Source of the DNA: a virus
Direction: 5' to 3' (one strand)
DNA length: 29,363 nt
IMG/VR virus record: IMGVR_UViG_3300009149_000193
Location: 1-29,363 of that record
Positions 3,052 to 13,100 of the stretch are shown piece after piece. The notes under the pieces are model-generated. The model saw only the letters and a program-made list of their open reading frames with translations. It was not told the DNA's origin and did not search any database. The position numbers were made by a program, and so were the translations under genes. Position 1 is the first letter of the stretch. The number at the start of each line of letters is the position of its first letter.

Positions 3052-3663
3052 CTAGGCCTTGTCGTGATGATTCACCTCGAAAACTGCTCTTGAGAATCCC
3101 ATCGGAGTTACTGATCGCAGATCGGCCCGCTCCGGTGAGGGTGACATTTCCCAGATAGCCTGGCTGACCCCTTCTGGCTTTTCTGTTATCTGGAACTCAG
3201 GCATAACGAATGTGTCGTTCGTCCAGAGGCACGTCTTCTTCTGGTACATGTCTCCGTAATTCCATGGCTGGAATATGTAGTCGGGTTTACTCCACATCGT
3301 TGATAGTCGGCCAACTGGATTTTCGATCATCCACGGGGCGCGACTCCATTCCCCGATGCGTCGACAGGCTTCGACGAGAGACAGGGCATCGATCAGCAGA
3401 TTCAGCCCCTTCTTTGGCCAGTCCTGAGATCCAGAGACGGCGAACAGAGTGCATTCCGGGGCTCCGAACACCATAGCTATATCCCAGTCGGGATCCGGCC
3501 ACCATGTCCTGACGTCGCCCCACTGGTACGTAATATTGCCTTTGATTGTCGGCTTGCGTATAGGGTGCTGAAGATCAACGCAGATACATTCGTACCCGGC
3601 TTCTGCCCATGGCTTTACCATGTTTCCTGTGCGGTCACACAGAGAGATCACCTTCTGAATCAT
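3052..3663 (-). CDS. Short DNA cytosine-C5 methyltransferase-like protein
   Basis: 203 residues, about half the usual length of a C5 methyltransferase. Visible parts in order: SLCDRTGNM (7-15), in the place of the SAM-binding motif I; CVDLQ (28-32), motif II; GAPECTLFAVSG (67-78), corresponding to the catalytic P-C loop with Cys71; MIENP (112-116), corresponding to the ENV/ENP motif; YGDMYQKKTCLW and a closing SVTPMGFSRAVFEVN, which phage relatives share. This supports a SAM-dependent enzyme acting on cytosine in phage DNA, plausibly to evade host restriction. The target recognition domain is very reduced. The Pro-Pro-Cys is replaced by Ala-Pro-Glu-Cys, so activity on a different pyrimidine or loss of activity cannot be excluded. 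GGGAG lies five bases before the ATG, which overlaps the end of the preceding gene by 29 bases. Confidence 0.65.
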   Translation of the reverse strand: MIQKVISLCDRTGNMVKPWAEAGYECICVDLQHPIRKPTIKGNITYQWGDVRTWWPDPDWDIAMVFGAPECTLFAVSGSQDWPKKGLNLLIDALSLVEACRRIGEWSRAPWMIENPVGRLSTMWSKPDYIFQPWNYGDMYQKKTCLWTNDTFVMPEFQITEKPEGVSQAIWEMSPSPERADLRSVTPMGFSRAVFEVNHHDKA

Positions 3664-3898: not shown

Positions 3899-4103
3899 CA
3901 CAGATTGATTTTGCGAGGACGTTTCTGACACTTTGGATAGCGTCGTTTCCGGACATCTGTTCTGAGCCTGAATACACTACGCGAACATCGCCGTTCGACT
4001 CAATGGCGATATGCCCGGTGCAGTATTCAGTCTCAGGATTGAATGTCAGGAACGTACTGACCCTGCTACTGGAAGGGAACTGACGAATGGAAAATCTACT
4101 CAT
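3891..4103 (-). CDS. Small hypothetical protein
   Basis: 70 residues from the ATG at 4103, with AAAGGG about eight bases upstream. A TTG at 4136 would extend it by 11 residues but has no better support. The sequence (MSRFSIRQFPSSSRVSTFLT, then GHIAIESNGDVRVVYSG) suggests a small beta protein. No family recognised. The gap 4104-4200 on its upstream side holds no other gene. Confidence 0.5.
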   Translation of the reverse strand: MSRFSIRQFPSSSRVSTFLTFNPETEYCTGHIAIESNGDVRVVYSGSEQMSGNDAIQSVRNVLAKSICDD

Positions 4104-4200
4104 GTCGCACACCCTTTCTTGTAGGTGGACTGTCAATATCTAAATTGTGACGTATTTTTGCCTACCGAGTCGATACCATTAATTAGGTCGAGGTTCACGG

Positions 4201-4974
4201 CTAGTAGTTAGACCACAGGCATTCCGTCTTGATTTCCTTGAGTTTCGAGCTGCTGGCCTTGTTGTCGATCTGTATTTCGTGCCTTTTCCATCCATACTCT
4301 CTCTCCGCGTCAAGATACAAATCAGATCGATATCCAGATAGGATGAATTTGCCTTCGACTCCCCCTAAGGCGACCAATAGATCGGAATGTTCCGAATCTG
4401 TCATCTCAAACGCATAGTCGCTAGTCGTTACTCGTGTCTCGTGTTTATATGGAGGATCTGCGTAAATGAGCGTGTTTGGGCCATCTTGAGACTTAATTAC
4501 GTCTATTGCGTCCCTGTTCAGCACCACTACTCGCCTCAATCGTTCATGAGCATCCCGTAGCCCTTCGACAGCGGACAGCCATGAAGACACCTGCTCATTC
4601 ATTCCTCGCCGCGTCCTGTTTCTGCTAAGGGTCGCGAAGTCCTTCCCGAGGCCCTGTCGAGACTGTCGAAAACGAACAAAGAACCTCCACGCCTCCGTAA
4701 CAGAAGAGTCCCCAGAGAAATACCCGACGCTCGAATCGTCTTCGAATTTCTCCGGGAGACTAAATACAGTTTCGTCCAGGGCAGTGAGGTCGCAAAGCCT
4801 TTTGAATTCATTGTAGGAATCTGGATCGCGGAGACATGACCAGAAGTTGGTCAATCCAGAATTGAGATCATTCACCACCTCGCTGTGCCCTTCTATCCAC
4901 TTTACGGGCTTCGCAAAGAGAACAGCCAGCCCTCCGGCGTATGGCTCCACATAGTGAATATGAGGAGGGAACAT
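4201..4974 (-). CDS. D12-class DNA adenine-N6 methyltransferase, main open part (N-terminus frame-displaced)
   Basis: 257 residues from the first in-frame ATG. YVEPYAGGLAVLFAK (8-22) is the SAM-binding F.P.GG motif I and YADPPY (171-176) is the catalytic DPPY motif IV of the Dam/D12 family, which methylates adenine N6 in a short recognition site. The ATG at 4974 is probably not the ancestral start. The same frame continues upstream as SGGKYYLANQIIS, the conserved GGK..L N-terminal motif (motif X), before meeting a stop. The residues that should precede it (PLKWH) lie in another frame that begins at an ATG at 5074, overlapping the endonuclease stop by ATGA. The whole gene would be about 290 residues, a normal size for the family. 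As read, the enzyme either lacks motif X and is probably inactive, or relies on frameshifting, or the sequence has an error. Confidence 0.8.
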   Translation of the reverse strand: MFPPHIHYVEPYAGGLAVLFAKPVKWIEGHSEVVNDLNSGLTNFWSCLRDPDSYNEFKRLCDLTALDETVFSLPEKFEDDSSVGYFSGDSSVTEAWRFFVRFRQSRQGLGKDFATLSRNRTRRGMNEQVSSWLSAVEGLRDAHERLRRVVVLNRDAIDVIKSQDGPNTLIYADPPYKHETRVTTSDYAFEMTDSEHSDLLVALGGVEGKFILSGYRSDLYLDAEREYGWKRHEIQIDNKASSSKLKEIKTECLWSNY

Positions 4975-5011
4975 GCTAATGATCTGATTTGCGAGGTAGT
5001 ATTTACCGCCG

Positions 5012-5074
5012 CTAATGCCACTTCAGCGGGTGACATGCCCGTGAAGTGGATTTTCCTTTCTTTTTAATGATCAT
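5012..5074 (-). pseudogene. Displaced N-terminal segment of the D12 methyltransferase
   Basis: ATG at 5074 gives MIIKKKGKSTSRACHPLKWH and then a TAG at 5014-5012. LKWH is the usual lead-in to GGK in D12 methyltransferases. The GGC GGT AAA codons for GGK begin at 5010 in the +1 frame, four bases after the CAT codon. Thus TAGC (5014-5011) is extra relative to a WHGGK consensus, or one base is extra relative to WHYGGK. The ATG overlaps the stop of the HNH gene (ATGA), which marks it as the genuine start of the broken gene. Confidence 0.72.
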
Positions 5075-5592
5075 ATGTGCTTCCATGTTTTACGGTTACA
5101 AATATAGCTTATGTTTGCTTCGGTAACGCCAAATTCAGATGCGATTCGACTAAGCGTCTCTCCACGTAATCTCGCGTCGCGAATTTCAACAACTTTTTTA
5201 TCGGTTAACTTGACTGTTGAGGATCGTGTCCCAACACAGTCAGTGCCGTGCCTCTTCATGTCCTCTTTGTTTGATTCTGGAGTGTCCCACCTTAAGTTAC
5301 ATGGAGAGTCATTCGTGCAATCGCCATCGTCGTGACAGGCTTCCATTCCTGGTTCTCTTGGGCCTTTTGTTGCTAGCAAAGAAAAATAGCTTCCGTACCT
5401 GCGAACATAGTTCCCGCTGTCGCTCCTTAGCGTGTACCTCTTTCTGCCGTCTGTCTTTCTTACGTCAGGCTTTAGCTCTCGTTTTCTTTCTCCACGAATC
5501 CTCCAGACTTTCCCGTCACACGAAACGATATATTTCGAAAACCCTGGTATCCGATGCCATTTAAGGGGCTGCTGCAAGCGTGACTTTTTCAA
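5071..5592 (-). CDS. HNH homing endonuclease with NUMOD4 and C-terminal helix-turn-helix
   Basis: 173 residues. Residues 11-31 (KWHRIPGFSKYIVSCDGKVW) match the NUMOD4 DNA-contact motif (W..I.GF..Y.VS..G.V). Residues 85-113 (ACHDDGDCTNDSPCNLRWDT, then PESNKEDM) are an HNH_3 nuclease with His87, the conserved Asn/Leu-Arg-Trp strand and Asn108. Residues 128-170 form a helix-turn-helix (LTDKKVVEIRDARLRGETLSRIASEFGVTE) seen in free-standing phage homing enzymes. It would cut a specific site, usually in a cognate gene of related phages, and so spread itself. Start: the TTG at 5592, with AGGG six bases upstream, because no ATG precedes the catalytic domain. The start overlaps the ParB-type gene by 32 bases and the stop overlaps the methyltransferase ATG, so it is embedded between two genes rather than inside one. 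Confidence 0.85.
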   Translation of the reverse strand: MKKSRLQQPLKWHRIPGFSKYIVSCDGKVWRIRGERKRELKPDVRKTDGRKRYTLRSDSGNYVRRYGSYFSLLATKGPREPGMEACHDDGDCTNDSPCNLRWDTPESNKEDMKRHGTDCVGTRSSTVKLTDKKVVEIRDARLRGETLSRIASEFGVTEANISYICNRKTWKHI

Positions 5593-6484
5593 GTTCTGCC
5601 CTAATACTGTTCAGGTGATTGATTGCGATATCCAGCTGAGAATGCAGTGCCTCAGGGATTGATAATCTGGCTACGTGTAGCGATTTAACCTGTGAGCCAA
5701 GAGTTAGAATCGTCCCTTCGAGGCTCGCCACATTCTTGATGATCTTCTTTTGGTCGGCCTTCTTCCCAGGCTGGCCGATCTTCTGCGCGACTCCGTATCC
5801 GGTAGATACTCCCTTTTGGAGAGCGTCCTCAATCAGCCCGGCCTTCTTTTCATTCCCGGCACTTCGCCACGCCTCTGCTGTCTTGATCGCCCGCTGCCCC
5901 ATCTGGAACGTCTTCTTGCTCACTCCAATATGGTCACACGCCACGTCCTGCGGAGAGGCAGCTGATCCAGTCCGGGCCACGTAGCTCCGGGTAAGCTCAA
6001 CCACTTTCTCGTAGCTCTGCCTGGTCATCCCAGACAGCTCCATCAGCTCTTCGTCGGTGTGTGCGTCCGGCTCGTAAATCGGAAGCCCGGAAGCCCGGCG
6101 AATCCTGTTCTGCGTCTGAAGCAGCTCCGTCAGGTACATGATCTCTCGTACCTTCTGGACATTTGACCGATTCCTCTGGTGGCGATTATCCTCAATCAGG
6201 GCGAATCCGACTTCTTCAGCGTTATTAAGACTCCGCCTGACAACAACAGGAACTTCACTCAGGCCTGCGTGCTCTGCGTGAAGCTTGCGACGATGCCCCT
6301 TAACGATCATTCCGTCCGGAAGTACCTCTATCGGCGTGTCGATTCCGTGATCCTGAACCGACTTGAGCATGTCCGGATCAACGCTCTCTTCTCCGTAAAT
6401 CTCATAATTGAGAGGGTTGTTCCTAAGCAGGGAAATCGGAACTGTCGTTATTGTCCCGTCCGGAATCTGGCTGAGGTCTTTCAT
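5561..6484 (-). CDS. ParB/Srx-domain protein with helix-turn-helix
   Basis: 307 residues. Residues 14-105 form a ParB/sulfiredoxin N-terminal domain: VPISLLRNNPLNYEIYG, then IDTPIEVLPDGMIVKGHRRKLHAEHAG with the GHRR box at 63-66, and EEVGFALIEDNRHQRN. The middle (about 140-230) holds helix-turn-helix material (LMELSGMTRQSYEKVVEL; IGVSKKTFQMGQRAI) and the C-terminus is a long helix likely to dimerise. This is the layout of chromosome- and plasmid-partition ParB proteins and of phage regulators that use the same fold. No ParA is in view, so a regulatory or DNA-modification-linked role is as likely as partition. The ATG has no strong ribosome binding site and overlaps the upstream gene by 62 bases, so it is probably translated by coupling. 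Confidence 0.8.
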   Translation of the reverse strand: MKDLSQIPDGTITTVPISLLRNNPLNYEIYGEESVDPDMLKSVQDHGIDTPIEVLPDGMIVKGHRRKLHAEHAGLSEVPVVVRRSLNNAEEVGFALIEDNRHQRNRSNVQKVREIMYLTELLQTQNRIRRASGLPIYEPDAHTDEELMELSGMTRQSYEKVVELTRSYVARTGSAASPQDVACDHIGVSKKTFQMGQRAIKTAEAWRSAGNEKKAGLIEDALQKGVSTGYGVAQKIGQPGKKADQKKIIKNVASLEGTILTLGSQVKSLHVARLSIPEALHSQLDIAINHLNSIRAELEKVTLAAAP

Positions 6485-6782
6485 TTAGGGCGATATCCAA
6501 AATTCTGGTGAAGTTCTGGTTTCTTGTCTGTAAATATCCGGGAAATACACATTCCCCGTCTTCGTTTATCTCTGTCAGTATGAACAGGGGGACGAAATCA
6601 GACCCCTGAGCATTGTCTGTAAATATGGTGATCGCACAGTCATTCCCCTTGGGATCGCCGACGATCTGCACGTTTTCGAGCTGAATGTCAGCAGGATGCC
6701 AGTCCTCCAGTAACTCCGGGTAGAGTTCCTTCATTCTTGATCGGGCGGCATCTTCGAGAATCTGAGACGTTGATTTGCTCAC
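6423..6782 (-). CDS. Hypothetical protein, first gene of the leftward run
   Basis: 119 residues from a GTG at 6782, with AAGAAAG upstream (an ATG at codon 17 is the alternative). It has an acidic helix-beta core (SQILEDAARSRMKELYPELL; VGDPKGNDCAITIFTDNAQG) and a polar acidic tail. No family recognised. It overlaps the ParB-type gene by 62 bases. Being first after the candidate promoter at 6822-6849, it should be the earliest translated product of the left arm. Confidence 0.5.
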   Translation of the reverse strand: MSKSTSQILEDAARSRMKELYPELLEDWHPADIQLENVQIVGDPKGNDCAITIFTDNAQGSDFVPLFILTEINEDGECVFPGYLQTRNQNFTRILDIALNERPQPDSGRDNNDSSDFPA

Positions 6783-6821
6783 GGCCTTCTTTCTTAATTT
6801 GAGGTAGCTGGATTTCAGGGC

Positions 6822-6849
6822 AGTCTATCAGCAAATTTCATCGCGTCAA
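6822..6849 (-). promoter_or_regulatory. Candidate sigma-70 promoter for the leftward gene run
   Basis: Minus strand TTGACG (6849-6844), a 16-base spacer and TAGACT (6827-6822): five and four matches to the consensus. It lies about 40 bases before the first leftward start codon in the divergent gap 6783-7014, the natural place for it. No equally good rightward promoter is visible there. Confidence 0.45.
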
Positions 6850-7014
6850 GAAATCCCGGGATAGAAATCAAAATGGACATGCGACTACCATTACTTACGT
6901 TTTCTCTGAGTGAGTAGTCCATTCTCAGGCTCCGTGGATGGGCTGCTCTTTTATTCTTTCTGCTCTTATGTCATGTTTTGGCACTCAAGGCCAGAATATA
7001 CGGAGCAAACACAG

Positions 7015-9858: not shown

Positions 9859-11340
9859 ATGCAGACACTGACATGGAATACTAATCGTGAGCAGATCGCA
9901 CCGGGCCGGTTTCGGTCCGACGTGCGAGGTAAGTGGATCAACTGGCTGGACGCCGACGGCTGGAAAACGATGTCGGCTGCGTTCGTCGAAGATTCGGGCG
10001 GGTTCCGAGCGGCCAACATCCCGGGCGTCTACCAGGCGCCTGCGAATTCCAATCAGCCGGTCACGCTATCAGTTGAGCAGCGATACAACGTCTTTAGCAA
10101 ATCACTAATCAACGACGCACCGCTGGTCATCGAAGCCACTCCGGAAAACATCCGCAACGTGGCGGGCATACTGAGCCCTGACCTGTCGAGCGTGGTCTAC
10201 CCCAACACCTGGGCAGACGGCATTGATCTGCGGTATCGAGTTACACAAAACCGAGGCCCTCGGGTATCTCGCGAAGTCGTGATTAACTCAATGCCAGCGG
10301 GGACCGGTGACCTGGAATTCTCATGGCTGATTGCGGCGGGCGGCGGCGCCCAACTGTACAAGGGCAACTCGCAGGCATGGCGAGGCAATCCAAACGATCG
10401 AGCGTTTATTCAGGGCCAGGGCATGGTGATGCGGGCTGGTAGAAGTCGGGCCGGCGAATCGACTGAACGTGGCAGTGGAATCAGAACGCCGAAAGCCTGG
10501 TACTACAACGCGGATGGTGAACCGGTCACGACTGATATTCGTGTCGACTTTGCCCTCGTCAGCCGTGACGTGATTCGAGCCACGAAGGTGATTCCGAGAT
10601 CGTTGGTAGTTGCTGCACTGGCTGCGGGCTCAGCATTGTACTCGGATGACACGAGCACGTTTTATCCGGACCCTAGTGTTGAGGTGACGAGTGTTGATGG
10701 GTTCGTGAGTTATTTCCAAGGGTCTGGAATGACGTGGGCTGAGGTTCAATCTCAGGCAACCAGCAATGGTGGTGACGATAACAGTTCTTTAGCGACTATG
10801 TGGCTCAGAGCTGACAGCATTACGAATAAATACGATGACATAGACAGGATGCTGTTAGGGTTTGATACATCGCCAATTGACGATACTCACCTCGTGGATA
10901 GTTCCACACTGAGAATAAGGCCATGGGATCAGATTTCCGATACTCTAGGTGAGCACGACTTATCTCTGGTGTCCTCGTCACCCGCATCAAACACGGCTAT
11001 TGTCAGTGGTGATATTGATAGCCTGGGTTCCACAAAACTCGCTACCGACATGACGAATGCCAATTGGACTGCGGGAACCGAACAAACTTTCACGCTAAAC
11101 GCGGCAGGATTAACCCATATTGATAATACAGGTGTGACAAATTTCGGAATACGATTCGAACCGGATGCAGCTAATGTTGAGCCTACATGGATTACCGGAA
11201 CACAGTTAAAGGTTCGAATCAAAACCGCAGACGATGCCGGTACGGATAACGACCCGCTCCTGACGGTCATTCACAGCGCAGGTGCCACAGGAAGCCCCAT
11301 TCCATACTACAATGCAGTTCAAGCAGGAGCCCTGTCGTGA
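9859..11340 (+). CDS. Beta-rich virion surface / fiber-like protein (DNRLRE-like C-terminal domain)
   Basis: 493 residues. Residues 1-245 form a beta-rich region with conserved-looking blocks (INDAPLVIEATPENI; YPNTWADGIDLRYRV; VINSMPAGTGDLEFSWLI) whose family I cannot name. After a short hydrophobic stretch (RSLVVAALAAGSAL, about 250-263), residues 270-490 look like a DNRLRE/carbohydrate-binding-type beta sandwich: DRMLLGFDTSPIDDTHLVDS, a central FTLNAAGLTHI strand, and a closing DPLLTVIHS strand. Such domains occur in secreted and adhesive proteins. Inference: a virion decoration or host-surface binding protein. The two halves differ in base composition, about 57% versus 40-45% GC in sampled 60-base segments, suggesting a fusion or exchange near 10.6 kb. 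The ribosome binding site is weak. The stop overlaps the next start (GTGA). Confidence 0.6.
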   Translation: MQTLTWNTNREQIAPGRFRSDVRGKWINWLDADGWKTMSAAFVEDSGGFRAANIPGVYQAPANSNQPVTLSVEQRYNVFSKSLINDAPLVIEATPENIRNVAGILSPDLSSVVYPNTWADGIDLRYRVTQNRGPRVSREVVINSMPAGTGDLEFSWLIAAGGGAQLYKGNSQAWRGNPNDRAFIQGQGMVMRAGRSRAGESTERGSGIRTPKAWYYNADGEPVTTDIRVDFALVSRDVIRATKVIPRSLVVAALAAGSALYSDDTSTFYPDPSVEVTSVDGFVSYFQGSGMTWAEVQSQATSNGGDDNSSLATMWLRADSITNKYDDIDRMLLGFDTSPIDDTHLVDSSTLRIRPWDQISDTLGEHDLSLVSSSPASNTAIVSGDIDSLGSTKLATDMTNANWTAGTEQTFTLNAAGLTHIDNTGVTNFGIRFEPDAANVEPTWITGTQLKVRIKTADDAGTDNDPLLTVIHSAGATGSPIPYYNAVQAGALS

Positions 11341-13100
11341 TTTATATTGACGTCGATGCAGCAGTGACAGTGCCTGTAAATATCATGCCCCTCTTGGATG
11401 ATACTGATTTCATCACTCGTGAGGTCGCCATTGCATACAACCAGGCTGGCATGGACCTTGTGTGGAATTTCATCACGCCAAACGGGACGATCACCCAAAC
11501 GGCTGTCACCCCGACAACTGCCGGGGTCTACGATTGGACGCATATTGGCGACGGTATGTACAAGATTGAAATTCCGGCATCGGCTGGTGGGTCGATCAAC
11601 AATGACACGGAAGGCGTGGGCTACTTCACTGGCATCTGTACCGGAGTTCTCGCGTGGCGGAGTCCTGACATCTGTTTTCGTGCGGCAGGGCTGAATGACG
11701 CACTGATCGAATCAGCCTACTCAGTGACACGTGGACTGACGGGGACGGCGTTGCCTGCAGCAGCAGCAGACGCAGCGGGCGGGGTTCCGATCAGCGACGC
11801 GGGTGCTTTGGATATTGACGCCAAGCTGGCGAACACGAACGAGATCACAGTTGCAAGAATGGGAGTGTTGACAGATTGGATTGATGCTGGTCGACTCGAT
11901 ACACTCCTTGATCTGATTAAAACTAAAACAGACTTCCTACCATCAGCAACTGCTGGAGCTGCGGGTGGAGTATTTATTGCGGGAACTAATGCAGCAACAG
12001 TAGTCACAACATCATTGACTACCACATTTACAGGCAACGTAACTGGGTCTGTGGGCTCGGTTACTGGAGCGGTGGGTTCTGTCACTGGTTCTGTTGGGTC
12101 GGTTGCTGGCAATGTAGATGGATCGACGGCAAGTGTTACTGGAGCTGTTGGTAGCGTAGCTGGTAACGTAGACGGAAACGTAACGGGATCAGTTGGATCG
12201 TTAACAGGCCATACAGTCCAGACCGGAGACACATTCGCTAAATTCGCAGGTATTACACTTCTGGCCGAGTGGCTCGGAATGATCTTCGGGAAACAGGCTG
12301 GTGATGCAACTGCCCTGACAGAAGTTAAAGCTACTGGTGCAGGGTCAGGTGACTTCAATCCGGTAACCGATTCACTGGAAGCACTCCAGGAAGATGGCAT
12401 TACTTCGGTTTCTGGAGCAGTTGGGTCAGTTACCGGGGCCGTCGGTTCGGTTGCAGGTAATGTCGGCGGTTCAACAGCAAGTGTGACAGGGGCTGTTGGC
12501 AGTGTTGCAGGTAATGTCGACGGAAATGTTACAGGGTCCGTCGGGTCTCTGGTCGGCCATACTGTACAAACTGCTGACCATACGGCAGCAATTGCAGCGA
12601 TCCCAACAACTGCCATGAGGGGTACTGACAACGCTGCTCTGGCAAGCGTGGCGACTGAGGCTCGATTAGCGGAACTTGACGCCGCAAACATTCCCGCAGA
12701 TATCGATACTATCAATACAGCGACTGCAGGACTTGCAGGTGCGGCTATGCGAGGTACAGATTCAGCGTCTACTCACTCTGCTGATGATGTGTGGACTGCT
12801 GCCGGCAGAGCCCTGAGCGACCCGGCTGGATTGAAGAAAACCACAGCCGTACCCAACTTCACGTTCGTTATGCACAGCGACTCTGATGGCAGGACACCTC
12901 AGGCCAGCGAGACCGTAACGGCTCAAAGGTCGATCGATGGAGCGGCGTTTGGGGCATGTGCAAACAGCGTCACTGAGATCAGTAATGGTGTTTACAAGAT
13001 CGATCTGGATGCTGCTGATCTGAATGGAGACAATATCGTCTTGAGGTTTACTGCGGCAAACTCTGACGACAAGCTCATCTCTATCCACACGGAGACATGA
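11337..13100 (+). CDS. Repeat-containing fiber-like structural protein
   Basis: 587 residues from a GTG coupled to the preceding stop, with AGGAG upstream. The N-terminal about 125 residues form a beta domain (LLDDTDFITREVAIAYNQAG, then GDGMYKIEIPASAGG and WRSPDICFRAAGLNDALI) seen in other phage structural proteins. Two collagen-like, glycine-periodic blocks follow at about 233-298 and 361-416, built from V-G-S-V-T/A-G units and each ending in GHTVQT. They are separated by a 60-residue globular segment. The C-terminal 85 residues are another beta domain (MHSDSDGRTPQASETVTAQR, then NSVTEISNGVYKIDLDAADL), again typical of phage surface proteins. Likely a trimeric fiber or head decoration. Its position beside the head protease argues for a capsid location, but this is inference. 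Confidence 0.62.
   Translation: MIYIDVDAAVTVPVNIMPLLDDTDFITREVAIAYNQAGMDLVWNFITPNGTITQTAVTPTTAGVYDWTHIGDGMYKIEIPASAGGSINNDTEGVGYFTGICTGVLAWRSPDICFRAAGLNDALIESAYSVTRGLTGTALPAAAADAAGGVPISDAGALDIDAKLANTNEITVARMGVLTDWIDAGRLDTLLDLIKTKTDFLPSATAGAAGGVFIAGTNAATVVTTSLTTTFTGNVTGSVGSVTGAVGSVTGSVGSVAGNVDGSTASVTGAVGSVAGNVDGNVTGSVGSLTGHTVQTGDTFAKFAGITLLAEWLGMIFGKQAGDATALTEVKATGAGSGDFNPVTDSLEALQEDGITSVSGAVGSVTGAVGSVAGNVGGSTASVTGAVGSVAGNVDGNVTGSVGSLVGHTVQTADHTAAIAAIPTTAMRGTDNAALASVATEARLAELDAANIPADIDTINTATAGLAGAAMRGTDSASTHSADDVWTAAGRALSDPAGLKKTTAVPNFTFVMHSDSDGRTPQASETVTAQRSIDGAAFGACANSVTEISNGVYKIDLDAADLNGDNIVLRFTAANSDDKLISIHTET
12033..12230 (+). repeat. Glycine-periodic repeat block A of the fiber-like protein
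   Basis: Encodes tandem V-G-S-V-(T/A)-G-type units ending in GHTVQT. Residues coded by 12120-12203 are identical to those coded by 12468-12551 in block B, although most codons differ. Confidence 0.85.
12415..12581 (+). repeat. Glycine-periodic repeat block B of the fiber-like protein
   Basis: Second copy of the V-G-S-V-(T/A)-G block, also ending in GHTVQT. Over the 28 residues from 12468 to 12551, the protein matches block A completely while 21 codons differ synonymously. Confidence 0.85.

Follow-up and report, generated by a model that had tools for sequence, protein, structure and literature searches.

A recurrent hairpin-bearing insert splits D12 adenine methyltransferase genes of phages and may be crossed by translating ribosomes

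The window analysed here, a stretch of 29,363 nt of viral DNA (IMG/VR record IMGVR_UViG_3300009149_000193), carries a D12-type N6-adenine methyltransferase gene in which the (P/L)KWxGGK motif is not contiguous in any one frame, being split by the four bases TAGC [Table 1]. The leader ATG and the stop codon of the preceding HNH gene (TGA, 5073-5071) overlap as ATGA. Past C5011, the next frame reads GGKYYLANQIIS, runs through DPPY and stays open to the stop codon at 4201. The body thus delimited harbors GGK, motif I (EPxxGG) and DPPY; it is recognized by the Pfam model MethyltransfD12 (PF02086, E 1e-16) from GGK onward, and its GGK aligned with that of DpnM (2dpm), a Dam-family enzyme of solved structure. 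Uninterrupted members of the clade, many of them from Planctomycetota MAGs and phages, encode PLKWHGGK in a single frame, indicating that TAGC is extra and that the upstream part belongs to the D12 gene. A preliminary description of this DNA had proposed the same layout of ATG, ATGA overlap, PLKWH and TAG, had placed the extra base or bases exactly before GGK and had assigned the segment from ATG to PLKWH to the methyltransferase; the minus-strand reading frames and the unbroken relatives bore it out on these points. It had missed the HNH ORF's own PLKWH copy, the hairpin over the PLKW codons and the Shine-Dalgarno (SD)-like sequence upstream of it. A short way downstream of the D12 gene is a second putative DNA methyltransferase (3052-3663, minus strand; phrog_757, E 7e-64), and a large ORF with many short GNVTGSVGSVTGAVGSV-type repeats (11337-13100, plus strand) possibly encodes a tail or fibre-like repeat protein.

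Table 1 Features of the interrupted D12 locus, in window coordinates
Feature	Position	Strand	Remarks
ParB-like gene	6484-5561	minus	upstream of HNH gene
HNH gene ORF	5592-5071	minus	between ParB-like gene and D12 gene
Presumed original D12 5′ end (MKKSRLQQPLKWH, TTG start)	5554-5592	minus	fused in frame to HNH gene
First PLKWH copy (...QQPLKWH)	5568-5554	minus	start of HNH ORF
HNH homing-endonuclease-like body	5071-5553	minus	NUMOD4-like start, HNH, C-terminal HTH ending WKHI
Leader ORF (MIIKKKGKSTSRACHPLKWH-stop)	5012-5074	minus	ATG 5074-5072, TAG 5014-5012
Internal SD-like GAAAGGA	5054-5060	minus	anti-SD duplex -8.4 kcal/mol
Hairpin: CCACTTCA-CGGG / loop CATGTCA / CCCG-(C)-TGAAGTGG	5018-5049	minus	3′ arm codes most of PLKW
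Second PLKWH copy	5015-5029	minus	used by downstream D12 gene
Extra bases TAGC	5011-5014	minus	stop codon right after CAT plus one base; missing in uninterrupted relatives
D12 N6-adenine methyltransferase body	4201-5010	minus	GGK to stop codon; Pfam PF02086, phrog_56

Extra bases at the same point between PLKWH and GGK were found in six further IMG/VR phage contigs (4, 5, 6, 6, 7 and 11 nt), so that seven copies are known with the window included, their D12 proteins sharing 36-58% amino acid identity. One relative, L014 (52% identity), reads PLKWH-TGAT-GGK; the insert is TGAAGAC in L177, TGAAT (5 nt) in L176 and TAGGTGGTTTC (11 nt) in L134, and the 6-nt inserts of L004 and L032 (AGTAAT and ATAGAC, respectively) keep the frame. 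When the whole of IMG/VR was scanned for KWH and GGKxYLA separated by 1-30 nt, with no stop codon required, L134 and L176 came up as new D12 cases. A second IMG/VR scan, for an SD followed by a hairpin and requiring neither D12 nor a stop, recovered the known copies and L177, the remaining hits being non-D12, and a third, for KWH-stop-GGK, added no D12 gene to these. Searches based on the insert, on hairpin plus SD and on the stop after KWH thus meet on the same D12 genes. No copy was recognized among the matches listed from 392 Planctomycetota genomes, as judged from the sequences alone, and a DNA search of phage records found none. Separately, the D12 gene of contig L012 (2850-3000) encodes PLKWF followed by about 17 extra in-frame residues and then GGKGAFNGK; these residues hold a strong, different palindrome (GCCCGCAA...TTTGCGGGC), i.e., another in-frame hairpin insert at this motif.

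In all seven copies a leader of 18-22 codons starts with an in-frame ATG and contains, at the same place, GAAAGG(A/G), with anti-SD pairing of -7.5 to -11.0 kcal/mol; most have an additional, separate SD-like sequence upstream that could serve initiation. In each of the seven, the 3′ arm of a hairpin consists of the LKW codons. Folding z-scores for the window hairpin were -3.9 and -3.5, and those of the last 50 nt up to the CAY codon ranged from -3.5 to -6.7 across the seven copies; in 38 D12 genes without insert the hairpin was absent (mean z 0.2, minimum -1.7). As read from the folds, L014, whose lysine codon is AAA (AAG elsewhere), carries the matching U in its 5′ arm, and the inner part of the stem varies among copies with pairing kept if a one-base bulge is allowed. 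Formally, covariation lends the stem little support: its outer part hardly varies, and a column test on ungapped pairs was not significant, the bulge displacing the inner part in three copies. An RNA model, R1, scored 67.5 bits on the window hairpin, the window being among its building sequences, and found no further full element over the D12 loci examined; its match in L002 (24.8 bits), which has no insert, reflects the LKWH/GGK codons in common. As an intrinsic terminator the hairpin could be discounted, no such site being called there. The internal SD, a hairpin with the PLKW codons at its end and a stop codon right after CAY occur together in the window and four relatives.

The nuclease gene of the window is related to phrog_59 HNH endonucleases (E 1e-29; Pfam HNH_3 matched below cut-off only). 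Its product begins with MKKSRLQQPLKWH-RIPGF, resembling a D12 start, and the two PLKWH copies differ synonymously. Because the HNH ORF itself starts with a PLKWH copy, it looks inserted into the D12 gene at that point, and we consider such an insertion at the PLKWH/GGK junction probable on the window's sequence. A full HNH gene adjoins the element in the window alone. L014 retains a short HNH C-terminal trace (...RRTWKHVQ-stop), in L032 a first stretch coding for LKWH precedes the second by 221 nt, the two being separated by nothing but an HTH remnant, and four copies have no adjoining nuclease; five of the seven have no upstream PLKWH copy. An IMG/VR scan for an N-terminal LKWHxxIPG[FY] gave no HNH protein other than that of the window, and a protein scan of IMG/VR for HNH relatives found none. 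On the simplest reading, nuclease and element would have been inserted together after the KWH codons, and the nuclease then lost in most lineages. Near uninterrupted D12 genes, a small HTH-only protein like the HNH C-terminus (L116, 2041-2226; a Thioalkalivibrio MAG) was seen directly before one, and a relative of the window's nuclease (L031, 1956-2486) about 500 nt upstream of another.

When 48 D12 proteins were placed in a maximum-likelihood tree, the element-bearing rows came out scattered and called for 5 changes, of which well-supported branches force at least 3, as would be expected of a mobile element. Moreover, the D12 proteins of the window and L177 are 42% identical, yet their leaders match at 16 of 17 bases, suggesting that the element moves separately from the enzyme body. 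With recurrence at one exact spot in six other genomes and a homing nuclease in the window also pointing to a mobile insert, we regard a recurrent mobile element at a single D12 site as highly likely.

Whenever the insert breaks the frame (five of the seven copies), its first three bases are a stop codon (TAG, TGA, TAG, TGA, TGA) directly after PLKWH; in the two in-frame inserts they are not. Given stop-trinucleotide frequencies of 0.019-0.035 in the contigs, four out of four outside the window would arise by chance with a probability of ~4e-7. A pause for recoding predicts this regularity and decay does not. A fixed +1 frameshift was ruled out by the insert lengths, since those of 4, 4 and 7 nt call for a different shift from those of 5 and 11 nt, which need +2 or -1; an altered genetic code was ruled out as the stops include TAG as well as TGA, and the frame differs anyway. 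The triplet preceding GGK in the GGK frame is GAT, GAC, GAC, AAT, AAT, AGC or TTC, mostly Asp or Asn as in the in-frame copies, which favors a forward shift of 1-2 nt over a full hop. The P-site codon CAY matches none of the landing triplets (AGC, GAT, TTC, AAT, GAC). The internal SD lies ~45-55 nt away, or, by a hand count with the hairpin folded, ~3-9 nt from the triplet preceding GGK. A 5′ hairpin and an internal SD are known recoding signals. The preliminary description was right that CAU is a poor re-pairing codon, making a classical +1 slip with re-pairing unlikely. Its ranking of recoding as the least likely explanation did not hold, as all five frame-breaking cases combine a stop right after CAY with a 5′ hairpin and an internal SD.

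Taken together, the sequences lead us to favor, with only modest confidence, a mobile cassette lying between the PLKWH and GGK codons, at which stalled ribosomes would be driven past the stop codon to make full-length methyltransferase. For the translational crossing of the stop taken by itself, we put the chances at about even. The fuller version, in which an HNH-linked mobile element uses hairpin, SD and stop to push ribosomes 1-2 nt onward or across a short gap without any matching landing codon, is slightly less probable than that. Counting against the favored reading are the mismatch of CAY with the landing triplets, the different shifts that the insert lengths call for, the weak covariation and the finding of a complete HNH gene beside one copy only. 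In the window, the cassette would comprise the homing-type nuclease, joined to the former D12 start, and after it a new leader re-supplying PLKWH; the cassette sequence is observed, and its origin by insertion is what we infer. Ribosomes initiating at the leader ATG would stall at the stop codon with His-tRNA in the P site. On leaving the exit channel the hairpin would refold, assisted by SD pairing, and tug the mRNA backward so that the ribosome advances. Decoding would then resume in the GGK frame, either by a forward shift of 1-2 nt (giving WH-S-GGK in the window) or by a short hop. The extra bases also interrupt the conserved target sequence, and this may shield it from cleavage by the nuclease.

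The classic example of a bacterial virus gene that ribosomes bypass efficiently is T4 gene 60, whose link with a homing endonuclease has few counterparts. Few bypassing cases are known at all (PMC5009743). In gene 60, where bypassing arose after insertion of a homing endonuclease, a UAG directly follows the take-off codon, a 5′ stem-loop is believed to propel the ribosome by pulling on the mRNA, and landing is aided by an SD-like sequence (PMC5009743). T4 mobA/gene 60 and the D12 element share an HNH homing endonuclease beside a split gene, an insert at a conserved coding site, a stop adjoining the final codon of the first part, a 5′ stem-loop and an SD-like sequence (PMC5009743, PMC2988022); among our copies the stem-loop precedes the take-off site in all seven and the stop follows the take-off codon in five. 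In contrast to gene 60, with its 50-nt gap, the D12 inserts span 4-11 nt, the target is a D12 gene, the SD precedes the hairpin and the matching take-off and landing codons are absent, bypassing here being a prediction. Like +1 frameshifting in RF2 (prfB) and antizyme, the element would make ribosomes pause with a stop codon in the A site; it shares an internal SD with RF2 and, with antizyme, UGG as the second codon before the stop (PMC5009743). Unlike in these systems, however, CAY is not shifty, the SD is ~45-55 nt off unless the hairpin folds, and two copies need +2 or -1 rather than +1. Aeh1 mobE, which splits nrdA, is likewise a case of an HNH homing endonuclease that has entered the gene of a phage enzyme (PMC2988022); the two nrdA polypeptides reassemble, whereas the second D12 part has no nearby start codon in three copies. 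The byp elements of Magnusiomyces mitochondria are also short, frame-breaking inserts that ribosomes cross, and are numerous there (PMC5009743), but they occur in many genes under relaxed mitochondrial decoding, whereas the D12 element occupies one site in one phage gene family.

The main competitor to ribosomal crossing, a real if lesser possibility, is that a mobile element landing out of frame merely inactivates the methyltransferase, leaving the leader as a dead 20-residue peptide. Insertion of a mobile element at one site would account for the common position, and the two in-frame copies need no recoding. Motif IV is damaged in L134 (DAPY) and L176 (DPSY), which deviate at 8 and 10 of 78 conserved sites, respectively; together with D12 end branches that are not short, this suggests that some copies may be decaying. 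Against inactivation, random out-of-frame inserts would not put a stop right after PLKWH in five of five cases, and five D12 bodies are free of stops and internal frameshifts. L134 and L176, moreover, are sister copies whose inserts differ in length by 6 nt, leaving the frame unchanged. The D12 bodies retain most of their motifs. That of the window has 3 of the 78 conserved positions altered and does not clearly evolve faster than its sister, synonymous sites being saturated in nearly all comparisons. If the insertions are recent, intact bodies prove little.

Translational coupling, in which the leader terminates and D12 translation restarts at a start codon overlapping the 3′ arm of the hairpin under guidance of the internal SD, seems improbable. 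The SD does sit before the hairpin, and a GTG in the D12 frame lies 6 (L134) and 4 (L176) codons before GGK, giving MAL(N/GGF)GGK and allowing a coupled restart in these two copies only. The window, L014 and L177 have no D12-frame ATG, GTG or TTG before GGK; their first starts fall 12, 53 and 70 codons inside the body, with loss of GGK and, in two of them, of motif I too. An internal start at 4974, which by the preliminary description would have put the upstream part outside the gene had all relatives begun there, was rejected: it is not shared and costs GGK.

Still less likely is removal at the RNA level, by a self-splicing intron or otherwise, of the segment from after the first PLKWH to GGK. 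Excision of 5553-5011 would join PLKWH to GGK exactly in the window, and the element is site-specific and has a homing nuclease. The five copies without an upstream PLKWH offer no such junction, however, and neither group I nor group II introns, with their conserved catalytic cores, were found by Rfam over 3900-7000 at E values up to 10. Lastly, a sequencing or assembly error, raised in the preliminary description and conceivable for a single metagenomic contig, is extremely improbable with the same structure in six independent contigs from other data sets; these further copies rule out random inactivation as well as error.

Should the element inactivate D12 instead, it would represent a recurrent, site-specific route by which phages lose a DNA-modifying enzyme. 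If ribosomes do cross it, its copies would constitute a compact bacterial family of naturally occurring elements for recoding or bypass, and the pairing of homing nucleases with such elements would be a repeated event. The seven natural variants, with their different gap lengths, frames and stops, would then make it possible to tell apart what the 5′ hairpin, the SD, the stop and the landing codon each contribute.
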